Of a stretch of DNA of 64,000 nt, positions 12,119-60,059 are shown piece after piece. The stretch's first letter is position 1; each line of letters opens with the position of its first letter. The notes below the pieces were generated by a model. It was given only the letters and a program-made list of their open reading frames with translations. It did no database searches and had not been told where the DNA came from. A program made the position numbers and the translations under genes. The DNA is from Anaerotruncus massiliensis (ex Togo et al. 2026) (GTDB lineage: Bacteria > Bacillota > Clostridia > Oscillospirales > Ruminococcaceae): the NCBI RefSeq assembly GCF_900199635.1, contig NZ_LT962687.1, positions 2,728,541 to 2,792,540 of the forward strand. The letters are read 5' to 3'.

Positions 12119-12358
12119 TTCCAGGGGGCCTTTTGCAAAAGGCCCCTGGAAGCCCCTCCCAGGGAACTTTTGAAAAAGTTCCCCCGGACCCCCTCAAAAC
12201 TTTTGATTCAACGTTTTCGCCCGCCCGCTCAAAGTTTTCGCCCGCCTTTTTCAAAAGGCGGCGGGGTCAAGGGGCGGAGCCCCTTGCCGCGCTTCGCAAA
12301 GCGCGGCAGCTTATCCTGAGAAGCGCTTTTTTTGGTTCTTTTTTTCAAGAAAAAAAAG
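12119..12358 (+). repeat. Mosaic hairpin repeat between pnp and the CNNM gene
   Basis: No gene in 12019-12397. The gap is a chain of perfect hairpins: 12119-12148, 12160-12184 (CTTTTGAAAAAG tip), 12252-12264, 12270-12289 (AAGGGGC, loop gga, GCCCCTT), 12290-12310, and GTTC-T7/A-run 12334-12360. The segment 12259-12289 recurs base for base at 28711-28740, and 12160-12212 closely matches 28530-28575. Here the element runs opposite to both flanking genes. Confidence 0.7.
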
Positions 12359-12385
12359 AACGGGCCCGCCGGAAGGCGGGCCCGT
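12349..12385 (-). terminator. pnp terminator
   Basis: Ten-bp GC stem with GGAA-type loop (12361-12384), followed on the minus strand by TTCTTTTTTTT, 13 nt after the pnp stop. Confidence 0.85.
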
Positions 12386-24180: not shown

Positions 24181-25168
24181 GCCGGGGATTCTCCTTGGAT
24201 TTTCCGCCCAGGGGCCGGAGGGCCTTTTTTGCGCCCCTCCGGGGCGCACCTTGTAAGAGATTCTGCCGCAGGCAGTTCCTCTATGGGAATCCAAAGGGGC
24301 GTAAGCCCCTTTGAACGCGCGTCGCCGCGCAGCGGCGCTCCGGCGAAGCCGGGCAGCGCGTTTTAGCCGGGGCCCGCCCCGGCGGCGGTTTTGGATTTGC
24401 CGCGCTGCGCCCGGCGGGGCTTAGACGGGAATTGCCGCCCGTGGGCGGCAAGAATCACGAGCGCGTTCCGCCGCGCACCACGGGTTCCTTTTCGGACGGA
24501 CGAAAAGGAACCAAAAGTCCGCCTAAGAACCCTCCGCCGGGTTCTTAGGAATCTCCGGGAGTGCCTTGCCATAACCCGCAAACTGCCGCCGCTCCCCACG
24601 GGTACACCAGCTGAGGGCTCAATTCAGGTTACGGACGCACCCAACAACCGAAGCCGGATGGTTCGCCGTGGACGCACGGCGGAAAACAACGCCCGTTCCG
24701 GGCGTTCGCGCGCTCTGCGCGCGTGCGCGGCGAAGCCGCGCAGTTTTCCGCCTCCCTGTGAGAGATGCGAGCGAAATAAAAGCGGCCGTGCCTCCCCGGA
24801 TGCACTTCCGATACGGTTCCGGAGACTCACCGGCAGAGGCATTGCGCCCGCGGCGCGGCGGCCGGCGGGATGCTGTAGGCTCGTTCGCTCATCCGTGGAC
24901 GGGGCGCCGCCGACTTTGGCCGCAGGCCAACCGGAGGCGGCGCGGGGGTCGCAGGGGCAAAGCCCCTCGTGCCCTTCTTTGGTTCCTTTCTTGGGCAAGC
25001 AAGAAAGGAACTCGCTGTCGGTCGACTACCGACAAGCTCCGCCGCTCCCTGAGCGGCAAATCTAAGCCTGCCGTCGGTCGACTACCGACAAGCTCTGCCG
25101 CTCGATGAGCGGATAATCTAAATCCGCCGTCGGCCGACTACCGACAAGCTCTGCCGCTCCCTGAGCGG
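24181..25168 (+). repeat. Structured non-coding repeat region A (~1 kb), paralogue of region B
   Basis: No credible gene in 24097-25210. The sequence is a chain of perfect hairpins, colinear with 47161-48213 over about 1 kb (identical blocks at 24393-24420, 24480-24560 and 24650-24760, gaps elsewhere). Hairpins include 24231-24247, 24290-24310, 24432-24451, 24483-24512 (12 bp), 24522-24549 (11 bp), a four-way junction 24678-24752, 24902-24942 and 24982-25011 (12 bp), then a 56-bp tandem array. Compared with region B, the stems at 24432-24451 and 24982-25011 differ by compensatory changes. Small open frames here are conserved poorly and look accidental. Confidence 0.85.
24678..24752 (+). ncRNA. 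75-nt four-way-junction module, copy A
   Basis: A 10-bp closing stem (24678-24687 with 24743-24752) encloses three hairpins placed edge to edge: 8 bp/loop TTC (24688-24706), 7 bp/loop TCT (24707-24723), 8 bp/loop GAA (24724-24742). Every base outside the triloops is paired and the junction has no linkers. Region B has the same module with the same stems and changed loops. Whether it acts as RNA or as a DNA cruciform is not known. Confidence 0.65.
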
Positions 25169-25170
25169 CA
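25017..25170 (+). repeat. Tandem 56-bp double-hairpin repeats, array A (three units)
   Basis: GTCGG starts at 25017, 25073 and 25129, a constant 56-bp period. Each unit has hairpin 1 (GTCGGT, 5-nt loop, ACCGAC), a short spacer, hairpin 2 (GCCGCT or CCGCT, 5-nt loop, AGCGG(C)) and an AATCTAA-type linker. Stems are constant while loops vary (CCCTG, CGATG). The array ends at the acyl-CoA synthetase terminator. Confidence 0.85.
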
Positions 25171-25210
25171 AAAAAAGAATCGCCGCACCCTGCCGGGCGC
25201 GGCAAAAAAA
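25170..25210 (-). terminator. Acyl-CoA synthetase terminator
   Basis: Minus strand: GC hairpin 25203-25182 followed by GATTCTTTTTTT, immediately after the stop codon. Confidence 0.75.
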
Positions 25211-31390: not shown

Positions 31391-31545
31391 AAGAGGACGC
31401 CAAGGGGGCCGCTTCCCAGCCGGGAAGCGGCCCCCTTTCCGATGTTCCTTTTTATCCTGTAAAAAGGAACCGAAAAACACGCCTGAAGGATGGGGATTCC
31501 GCGCCTGCGGGCGCGCCGGGAGCACTGCCCGAATCAAAGGTTTCG
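31391..31545 (-). repeat. Mosaic hairpin repeat between the helicase and phoR genes
   Basis: Read on the minus strand, downstream of phoR: a hairpin at the phoR 3' end (31556-31575), a GC hairpin (31498-31516), a CTTCAGGCGT block with the GTTCCTTTTT/AAAAAGGAAC hairpin (31443-31469), then a 15-bp GC hairpin (31402-31438). Same module order as 2117-2280. Confidence 0.7.
31402..31438 (+). terminator. Helicase gene terminator
   Basis: Fifteen-bp GC stem closed by AA/TT with a short loop, ending in TTT, 13 nt after the stop codon. Confidence 0.7.
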
Positions 31546-39306: not shown

Positions 39307-39484
39307 GGTCAAATCTCCTTTGCCAAAATTCTATCCATAGAATTCCCATGCGCGATCCGTTTCATACGGGGCGGGCGAAAAATTTGCGGGAGGGGCCTTC
39401 TTTCTTTTCTATCGCAAAAGAAAGAAGCAAGGAAAAGGTTCCCAAAGCGGGGCCTGCGGGCCCGGGTCAAGGGCTCCGCCCTCG

Positions 39485-47120: not shown

Positions 47121-47156
47121 AAAAGGCCGCCCTTTTGGGCGGCCTTTCCTTTTTTT
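47121..47156 (+). terminator. fbp terminator
   Basis: AAAGGCCGCCC stem, TTTT loop, GGGCGGCCTTT, CCTTTTTTT; six nt after the stop. Confidence 0.9.
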
Positions 47157-47719
47157 GATTTTCCGCCCTGCGGGCAGAGGCTTTTTTGCGCCCCTCCAGG
47201 GCGCTTTGGATTTGCCGCACTGCGTCTGGCAAGCCTTTTACGCGCCCCTCTGGGGCGCTTTCAATGCGCCGCCTTTGGCGGCATAGATTGCCGGGTCACG
47301 CCCCGGCGGGCGGTTTTAGATTTGCCGCGCTGCGCCCGGCGGGGCTTTCACGGGAATTGCCGCTTTCCAAGCGGCAAGAATCACGAGCGCGTTCCGCCGC
47401 GCGCCACGGGTTCCTTTTCGGACGGACGAAAAGGAACCAAAAGTCCGCCTAAGAACCCTCCGCCGGGTTCTTAGGAATCTCCGGGAGTACCTTGCCAGTA
47501 CCCGCAGGTTACCGTCACACCCCACGGGTACACCAGCTGTGGGCACAACTCAGGTTGCGGGTGCTCCCAACAGGTAGGAATGGAAGGCGCGGCGAGCTTG
47601 TCGGGTAGGGGCACATGCATCGCTTGACCGATCGCGGGGTCAGTTGCGGGCAGGGGCCGCAGCTGACATACGCCCTGCGCTCCCAACGACCGAAGCCGGA
47701 TGGCTCGCCGAAGACGCAC

Positions 47720-47794
47720 GGCGGAAAACAACGCCCGTCCCGGGCGTTCGCGCGCCTTGCGCGCGTGCGCGGCGTAGCCGCGCAGTTTTCCGCC
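47720..47794 (+). ncRNA. 75-nt four-way-junction module, copy B
   Basis: Same geometry and length as copy A: 10-bp closing stem, three abutting hairpins. Loops differ (TCC, CTT-type, GTA) while all stems stay paired. Confidence 0.65.
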
Positions 47795-48074
47795 TCCCCG
47801 TGGGAGATGCGCGCCACGCAAAAGCGGACGTGCCTCCCCGAACGCACGTCCGATTCGGTTCTGGAGACTCGCCGGCAGAGGCATTGCGCCCGCGGCGCGG
47901 CGGCTGACGGGATGCTGTAAGCTTGTTCGCTGATCCGTGACAGGGCGCCGCCGACTTTGGCCGTAGGCCAACTGGAGGCGACGCGGGGGTCAAGGGGGCA
48001 TGGCCCCCTGCGGCTTCTTTCCCCCATTTCTTGTCCGTACAAGAAATGGGGCCGCCCGCCGGGGCGGGACCCGG

Positions 48075-48213
48075 CAACTACGCCGCTCGACGAGCGGTAT
48101 GTCTAAGGGGTCGCTGTCGGTCGACTACCGACAAGCTACGCCGCTCGATGAGCGGACAATCTAAAACCGCCGTCGGTCGGCCACCGACAACCTCCGCCGC
48201 TCGCCGAGCGGCA
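48075..48213 (+). repeat. Tandem 56-bp double-hairpin repeats, array B
   Basis: GTCGG at 48116 and 48172 (56 bp apart), preceded by a partial unit with hairpin 2 only (48080-48096). Hairpin stems match array A; loops are CGACT, CGGCC, CGACG, CGATG and CGCCG. Confidence 0.85.
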
Positions 48214-59751: not shown

Positions 59752-59784
59752 AGCATCTACAAAATGTTTTTATAAAAATTGTGA

Positions 59785-60059
59785 AAGACGCTGAAAAGAA
59801 GAGTAGGCCGCGAAAGCTACCACAGAGAGCCCCGTCAGGTGAAAGGGGGCGTGGCGGAAGCGGCTGAAGATGGTCTTGGAGTCTCGCGGGCGAAAGCTTT
59901 TAGTTCGCGACGGGTTCACCCGTTACAGTGACAGGCGGTCGGTATCGAGCCGGACGCCGGTGAGGCCTCCGCCGCAAGGCGGCGGCGAATCAAGGTGGTA
60001 CCGCGAAAGCACGCGCTTTCGCCCTTGGACGGGATGTCCATGCGGCGGAGGCTTTTTTT
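59785..60059 (+). promoter_or_regulatory. T-box leader with methionine specifier and intrinsic terminator
   Basis: tRNA-sensing leader RNA. Stem I: AGAC/GTCT base, K-turn TGA/GGA (59792-59794, 59878-59880), specifier loop with AGTA (59802-59805) opposite GAA (59866-59868), specifier ATG at 59870-59872 followed by a purine, and upper stem GGCCGC/GCGGCT. The T-box sequence AAGGTGGTACCGCG is at 59992-60005; its TGGT bulge pairs an ACCA tRNA end, right for tRNA-Met (discriminator A). The terminator pairs 59965-59975 with 60042-60052 (11 bp) before seven T. No plus-strand gene follows until metN at 60689; mscL lies between on the opposite strand. Other specifiers (GAT, TGG) fit the loop less well. 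Confidence 0.88.

Follow-up and report, generated by a model that had tools for sequence, protein, structure and literature searches.

The window analysed here, a stretch of 64,000 nucleotides from the genome of Anaerotruncus massiliensis (contig NZ_LT962687.1, positions 2,728,541 to 2,792,540), holds two hairpin-rich regions, A and B, of about 1 kb each. These raise the questions of what kind of sequence they represent, whether their folds are kept by selection, and by which means such regions could have reached their present positions.

Two copies of a dispersed intergenic repeat

Both A and B belong to one non-coding repeat of approximately 1 kb, of which about 50 core copies are found in the A. 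massiliensis genome. Their original description as colinear paralogues holds, given the same order of modules in both regions and shared blocks which align in one orientation. In a comparison with A, positions 140-422 and 528-1065 of the B query display 89% and 83% identity, respectively, and B carries one additional module of about 115 bp. Direct reading also bears out the compensated differences that had been pointed out earlier: stem 24982-25011 of A (GTTCCTTTCTTG/CAAGAAAGGAAC) and stem 48022-48051 of B (CCCCATTTCTTG/CAAGAAATGGGG) keep 12 of 12 pairs with four of them replaced on both sides, and two C-G pairs are exchanged for T-A pairs between stems 24432-24451 (A) and 47357-47377 (B). The observation on A and B is real; the differences between their stems are mostly swaps between discrete, ready-made hairpin types, i.e. 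module exchange. The hairpins belong to a few recurring types, and region A extends to about 25181 with three 56-nt units at its tail.

Copy counts rest on pattern searches, the similarity list having scored 40 of 130 candidates. With up to 2 mismatches allowed, the core pattern GGCAGAGGCATTGCGCC was found 50 times in the 3.15 Mb genome, in forward orientation in 29 cases and in reverse orientation in 21; one of these sites (C7:1436119, with 2 mismatches) looks spurious, and the reversed-pattern control gave 2 sites. Genome-wide, 57 sites matched the right-end hairpin pattern and 25 the pattern of the type 1 left-end hairpin, each with 0 control matches. Hence, chance is excluded as the source of these copies. 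Forty copies were fetched with their flanks and dissected.

Along the chromosome, core copies are depleted around the terminus, with 8 of 44 located in that half (C7 about 1.02-2.12 Mb; p=1.3e-5, calculated without the C7:1436119 site and the copies on contigs C4 and C6). The same half holds 13 of 53 end-hairpin loci and 12 of 35 HTH_3 control loci, and in view of the latter, part of the depletion may be a general bias. The dnaA gene is located at 3.013 Mb, and the sampled GC skew flips sign between 1.45 and 1.6 Mb. The window itself contains further end-like hairpins at 2150-2215, 12316-12361, 31444-31489 and 39401-39449 (16.8-29.7 bits with R1, a model of the end motif). Those at 2150 and 31444 both contain GTTCCTTTTT..AAAAAGGAACCGAAAAA.ACGCCTGAAGG and seem to represent another, smaller family of repeats.

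Architecture of the element

The element is a modular mosaic composed almost entirely of hairpins. Each copy is arranged in the order left hairpin array, end motif, M1 module, slot, right module, inverted end motif and array of 56-nt units (Table 1). In the end motif, a hairpin (about 12 bp) is followed by an A-rich linker, by a short strand complementary to the loop of that hairpin in many copies, and by a second hairpin. Both ends of the element thus carry the same kind of motif, the right one in mirror orientation to the left one. In A, B and most fetched copies the slot is filled by a non-coding four-way-junction module, and the place of this module in A is the position at which gene-bearing copies carry small genes; M1 adjoins the genes in L179 and L181 as well.

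Around this common plan, individual parts vary. The left array of A includes an extra multi-hairpin stretch at about 24262-24365 (bounds by eye), its right-array units are partly reverse-complementary to units of the left array, and modules similar to the extra one of B are found in L045 and L048. Cassettes may also be located within the second hairpin of either side, in mirror orientation (left in L016; right in L014, L015, L042 and L047). Terminal inverted repeats are only partial in A (66-75% over 44-89 bp) and B (65-69% over 70-166 bp), while long inverted ends enclose the genes of L202 (271 bp, 90%) and L181 (194 bp, 93%) and are also present in L218 from another family of the class (223 bp, 90%). 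Several copies immediately follow a hairpin of the neighbouring gene that resembles an intrinsic terminator (e.g. window 47122-47150, L182, L180).

Table 1 Features of element copies A and B (window coordinates) and loci with genes at the element
Feature	Position	Strand	Remarks
Element copy A, whole	24181..25181	+	one of 40 fetched copies L009-L048 (A = L043)
Left hairpin array of A	24181..24482	+	short hairpins with AGATTT/GAATT-like linkers between them
Left end motif of A, hairpin 1 GGTTCCTTTTCGGACGGACGAAAAGGAACC	24483..24512	+	model R1, 49.1 bits
Left-end loop strand CGGAC of A	24497..24501	+	partner GTCCG 24517-24521; linker AAAA 24513-24516
Hairpin 2, left end of A (TAAGAACCC...GGGTTCTTA)	24524..24547	+	both-side changes at a pair in up to 11 of 23 copies
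M1 module of A	24552..24649	+	bounds by eye
Four-way-junction (cruciform-like) module, interior slot of A	24678..24752	+	
Right interior module of A	24753..24969	+	contains GGCAGAGGCATTGCGCC
Right end motif of A, inverted	24970..25011	-	R1 39.6 bits, minus strand; strand TGCCC 24970-24974, linker 24975-24981, hairpin 24982-25011, loop strand GGGCA
Right hairpin array of A	25014..25181	+	three 56-nt units
Element copy B, whole	47154..48213	+	direct reading and alignment with A
Left end motif of B, hairpin 1	47409..47438	+	R1 49.1 bits
Extra module of B	47572..47687	+	without counterpart in A; ends in a second CTCCCAAC
Four-way-junction module of B	47720..47794	+	
Right end motif of B, inverted	48009..48051	-	TGCGG 48009-48013, hairpin 48022-48051; R1 33.7 bits, minus strand
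Right hairpin array of B	48054..48211	+	three units of about 56 nt
L202 (this genome)			XRE and 68 aa protein; inverted ends
L203 (this genome)			XRE and 89 aa protein; left end only seen
L204 (this genome)			XRE; right end only seen
L036, L183, L207 (this genome)			XRE
L179 (this genome)			RHH_3
L181 (this genome)			85 aa protein and 50 aa protein
L029, L040			XRE genes beside end hairpins
L060 (other genome)			XRE and DUF6809 (27.2 bits, cut-off 27)
L108 (other genome, Anaerotruncus sp.)			two Arc-like, one above cut-off
L218 (other genome)			59 aa protein; below cut-off TnpV (15.3 bits) and RHH_7 (14.6 bits)

Mirrored ends and loop-flank pairing

A detector for the end motif gave 169 matches in 894 kb compared to 6 after base-by-base shuffling of the same loci; it demanded loop pairing, and the scanned loci had been fetched for their resemblance to the element. 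Neighbouring end motifs less than 3.5 kb apart faced inward in 44 cases and outward in 8. In further sets, loop pairing had not been required in the search. One of them comprises 68 unique motifs of 37 organisms, 39 of which display at least 4 Watson-Crick pairs between loop and flank; combining each loop with the flank of a different organism gives an expectation of 12.0 (maximum 21 in 300 draws). A wider set of 171 unique motifs contains 95 with at least 4 pairs (20.8 expected, maximum 32 in 200 draws) and 40 with at least 5 (4.1 expected), the null serving as a guide and not as a probability, as related sequences are not independent. By group, at least 4 pairs are formed in 20 of 34 unique motifs of this genome, 69 of 112 from other non-proteobacterial organisms and 6 of 25 from Proteobacteria (null 2.8). 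The paired strands include CGGAC/GTCCG, GCGCCC/GGGCGC, TGCCC/GGGCA, GCGAT/ATCGC, CGGG/CCCG, ATGCAC/GTGCAT and AGCAT/ATGCT, and within one genome the end sequences vary while the architecture stays. Model R1 was built from 60 of the 101 listed motifs, about 15 of those 101 looking like false detections.

At the left end of B, loop CGGAC (47423-47427) pairs with GTCCG (47443-47447) as in A. When copies are counted instead of unique motifs, 4 or more Watson-Crick pairs are reached by only 23 of the 50 right ends of this genome. Three pairs are formed by the loops GCCGCC (11 copies) and TACGGA (16 of 50 and thereby the commonest right-end loop, B included). TACGGA is a one-base variant of TGCGGA (7 copies, 5 pairs) and keeps its pairing only via G.T on the + strand of the element. 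In B, accordingly, the right loop CCGTA (48035-48039) forms 3 consecutive Watson-Crick pairs, and 5 only with one G.T on that strand. Loop-flank pairing is thus common and covarying, not universal, and it is stronger evidence of covariation than the stem changes of the left core discussed below.

Small repressor genes in the interior slot

The slot is filled either by the cruciform-like module or by one or two small genes, including genes of Cro/CI-type and of Arc/ribbon-helix-helix repressors (Table 1). Pfam matches among the slot proteins comprise HTH_3, RHH_3 and Arc. Small HTH_3 genes (<150 aa) are located at most 900 bp from an end hairpin in 9 of 29 cases compared to 1.0 expected (p=0.0002, circular shift), and 0 of 23 larger HTH_3 genes are; this test used the 69 end-hairpin positions on C7 among the matches listed (51 of 57 sites on the + strand). 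The 18 proteins examined were confirmed to be encoded in their loci, one of them without its first residue and one without its first three. Five XRE and two ribbon-helix-helix proteins match phage regulator families of PHROGs (phrog_3, phrog_4, phrog_8, the Arc-like phrog_3180 and phrog_228), and two other small proteins tested gave no PHROGs match. From an anti-phage library, only helix-turn-helix proteins found a match (control-protein, HTH and similar models), with none for three non-XRE proteins. The 50 aa protein of L181 looks ribbon-helix-helix-like by eye and lacks such a Pfam match.

Not every interval between end motifs is of this type. No repressor gene was seen by eye in the long interiors of L059, L077, L101 and L125, and the longer frames enclosed by L087 and by one L108 interval may be ordinary host genes. 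In L181, L203 and L060, proteins of 83-89 aa are encoded near the repressor gene on the same or the other strand; one reaches DUF6809 (PF20648) and two match nothing. Region L108:1123-1290 encodes a 28-aa peptide which we take to resemble a holin-like type I toxin; it has no NCBIfam match. C4 antisense RNA acts in the immunity of phages P1 and P7, and such an RNA is located in Pseudomonas peradeniyensis at L111:4765-4849 (RF01695, 73.7 bits, cut-off 45), at a distance of about 470 nt inward from the left end motif and beside a 79 aa protein without Pfam match; a right end was not found in L111.

Selection on the fold and the question of strand

That A and B are not protein-coding, as originally proposed, is borne out by the interior of the element, which lacks a codon-phase signal (minor-allele fractions of.096,.093 and.097 for the three phases). 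Of the six frames, none is open in every copy of the GC-rich core, the best one being open in 30 of 39, and a coding origin was rejected on the missing phase signal and the lack of a Pfam match. The statement that neither region carries a transposase likewise stands as far as tested, with 0 Pfam matches at E<=0.01 for the 8 open reading frames of A and B.

Whether selection acts on the fold, the central point of the original prediction, can be answered in part. Speaking for it are the many copies, a structure that is kept as the sequence changes, and a loop pairing far above the cross-organism null. The stems add less: in 23 copies of the left core, 92 both-side Watson-Crick changes were counted, many of them reflecting discrete hairpin types, and the A/B differences from which the claim had been drawn are mostly swaps of such types. 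In addition, palindrome correction by template switching could produce both-side stem changes without selection and hence mimic stem covariation, while it does not readily explain loop pairing.

G.T and A.C mismatches are equally frequent (33 versus 38, 150 versus 150 and 9 versus 9), so that no strand is favoured overall; RNA is not favoured over DNA and, the TACGGA loop apart, neither strand is supported. This bears on the first alternative reading, in which the element would act as RNA: transcripts arriving from either neighbour would meet the same hairpin first, the element would terminate transcription or protect the mRNA 3' end, and copies would persist for that function. The mirrored ends, which present the same motif first from either side, agree with such a role, as do the orientation of neighbouring genes (3' end toward the element for the right-hand gene in 28 of 40 loci and for the left-hand gene in 20 of 40, by a simple ORF heuristic) and the + strand G.T pairing of the commonest right-end loop. 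Nevertheless, we consider an RNA function unlikely, since besides the missing G.T excess, terminator-like hairpins of the neighbouring gene already precede several copies, a 3'-UTR device would not be expected to enclose genes, and Rfam offers no match. At gathering score (Rfam 15), A and B gave nothing, which rejects a known structured RNA, and the only match in the window is a T-box leader elsewhere (59782-60029, RF00230, 101.9 bits). In 11 related loci, the search returned the C4 RNA of L111 and two tRNAs in L107 and nothing else. A Pseudomon-groES score at 24275-24383 (30.9 bits, cut-off 50) was attributed to coincidence, as can arise with GC-rich hairpins.

Distribution and mobility

The search proposed originally was directed at Oscillospiraceae, a scope that proved too narrow. 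The pattern GGTTCCTTTTN{6,12}AAAAGGAACCAAAA matches at least 109 stretches in genome contigs, and among the 80 loci listed, 23 belong to Pseudomonas (10), Lysobacter (10) and Inhella (3), the rest to Oscillospiraceae, other Clostridia and further bacteria; some members are gene-bearing. The flank TTCCGCCC..GGGCG, which lies outside the query, recurs in both groups, and mirrored end pairs are also present in Inhella L106 and Pseudomonas L069. Within the class Clostridia, R1 matches 85 of 391 genomes, 56 of them with one match and 16, the own genome included, with at least 4, where at most 16 candidates were scored per genome, E-values are rough and chance alone should yield about 4 of the 391 genomes at E<=0.01. 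In genomes with many copies, copies are more alike within than between genomes.

An occupied and an empty state can be compared at the flhO-flhP spacer (gene names read from the protein sequences). It measures about 600 bp with a related element in G002 and G006, whose right halves differ, and is short and element-free in G001, G003, G004, G005, G007 and G008, i.e. 2 of 8 congeners are occupied. R1 end motifs occur at these loci in G002 and G006 only, with a second pair further upstream in both. G002 and G006 are close relatives (query gene 96% identical), and loss or local expansion could account for the pattern as alternatives to movement. In the own genome, G009 and G010, the query gene of this junction had no match. 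At the FBPase gene next to B, none of 10 congener loci gave an R1 match below E 0.1 in the downstream region; as a clean empty site this neighbourhood was rejected, as the next gene differs and synteny is not conserved in the loci read. Carriage by plasmids or phages was likewise rejected, as a 550-base query taken from A matched none of the plasmid and phage records; viral contigs contained no match to the hairpin pattern.

From these sequence comparisons we infer that the element probably moves. At a probability of roughly 0.58, A and B are copies of a non-autonomous dispersed element with MITE-like behaviour and structured ends, mobilised in trans. A protein acting in trans would recognise its ends, in the form of either folded single strands of DNA or inverted sites in the duplex, and would transfer the unit to places between genes; recombination between copies would account for the turnover of arrays and modules, and the repressor genes would be passengers, possibly conferring phage immunity. 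Neither a mobilising enzyme nor an autonomous copy was found; no transposase exceeded the cut-off among the proteins tested, and the genome-wide search covered Y1_Tnp.

A second alternative is the conventional case, rather unlikely in our view, of MITEs derived from a DDE or HUH transposon, whose ends would be ordinary transposase-binding inverted repeats with incidental hairpins. Dispersed copies and the long terminal inverted repeats of L202, L181 and L218 (194-271 bp, 90-93%) point that way, and the 59 aa protein of L218 weakly matches the transposon-encoded TnpV (15.3 bits, cut-off 27). Excerpts of Silby et al. 2009 (PMC2718517) explain the inverted-repeat-flanked intergenic repeats of P. 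fluorescens in the same manner. Opposed to this, each end of the present element forms a hairpin in which loop and flank covary between organisms, a single genome contains different end sequences on a constant architecture, and Y1_Tnp, the transposase family searched genome-wide, is absent. A target-site duplication was not established, the flanks of L202 and L218 being read by eye, because the outer arrays vary in length and blur the ends. Least probable is neutral palindrome-rich DNA, spread by ectopic recombination and copy-back replication with template switching keeping stems perfect without selection, which would suit the module shuffling, variable unit numbers, both-side changes and lack of strand asymmetry, but fails to account for a loop-flank pairing that involves no local palindrome and yet covaries across organisms, for the recurrence of the mirrored end order in other families, and for the enrichment of small repressor genes near end hairpins.

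Building on the preferred reading of a trans-mobilised element, a bolder and so far doubtful extension may be formulated: a cross-phylum class of mobile cassettes defined by fold, whose mirrored hairpin-pseudoknot ends would be bound as single-stranded DNA, possibly by a host-encoded protein, and which would shuttle phage-type repressors (Cro/CI-like, Arc-like and, at one Pseudomonas locus, C4 antisense RNA) and thereby spread superinfection immunity between sites.

Comparison with known systems

Several known systems share individual traits with this element. Integron gene cassettes are small genes moved beside attC hairpin sites, which are folded as single-stranded DNA; the likeness lies in small genes at hairpin sites, whereas here two mirrored ends flank the gene. 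The ends of IS200/IS605 elements are hairpins of the same strand, so hairpin ends are common to both, but the present element displays mirror symmetry and no Y1 transposase. REP-type repeats with RAYT transposases were reportedly described by Nunvar et al. in 2010; a RAYT/IS200 origin was rejected here, as Y1_Tnp (PF01797) has 0 matches in the own genome (G000, 98.75% complete), with matches in 5 of 14 known genomes in the control search.

According to excerpts of Bertels and Rainey 2011 (PMC3116915), REPINs and BIMEs are likewise intergenic, mosaic and present in many copies, their inverted hairpins being thought to form single-stranded DNA or mRNA structures. In contrast to their doublets of short repeats, the units found here are short hairpins within a mosaic of about 1 kb, with loop-flank pairing, a swappable, gene-holding interior and no RAYT-type Y1_Tnp. 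The STAXI motif, in the available text of Weinberg et al. 2010 (PMC2864571), is a repeated pseudoknot occurring two to three times in tandem near genes of DNA-handling proteins; as here, a fold is repeated, which its authors consider perhaps to be folded single-stranded DNA, and it is occasionally located near c4 antisense RNA. A cmscan of the window and the 11 related loci gave no STAXI match. The intergenic repeats of P. fluorescens, as described in the excerpts of Silby et al. 2009 (PMC2718517), measure 50-352 bp, with several families flanked by inverted repeats and a bias to spacers of convergent genes. Compared by description, these repeats and MITEs resemble the present element in being non-autonomous, in several cases inverted-repeat-flanked and biased to convergent genes; they differ in that no parent transposon was seen here and that the fold is kept while end sequences vary.

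A description of this element family was not found in the open-licence papers searched, nor in the available parts of PMC8040213 and PMC12306157. As far as these searches tell, the expectation of an undescribed family was justified, and the family is real and widespread. Hairpin-bearing intergenic repeats are commonly classified as REPs or MITEs and followed no further. Compared to these, the present element has ends whose structure lends itself to testing one base pair at a time; forms with and without genes coexist in one genome, and relatives are found in many families. Hence, it makes testable what moves repeats without a transposase of their own, and whether the orphan small repressor genes of gut bacteria spread as passengers of such repeats.
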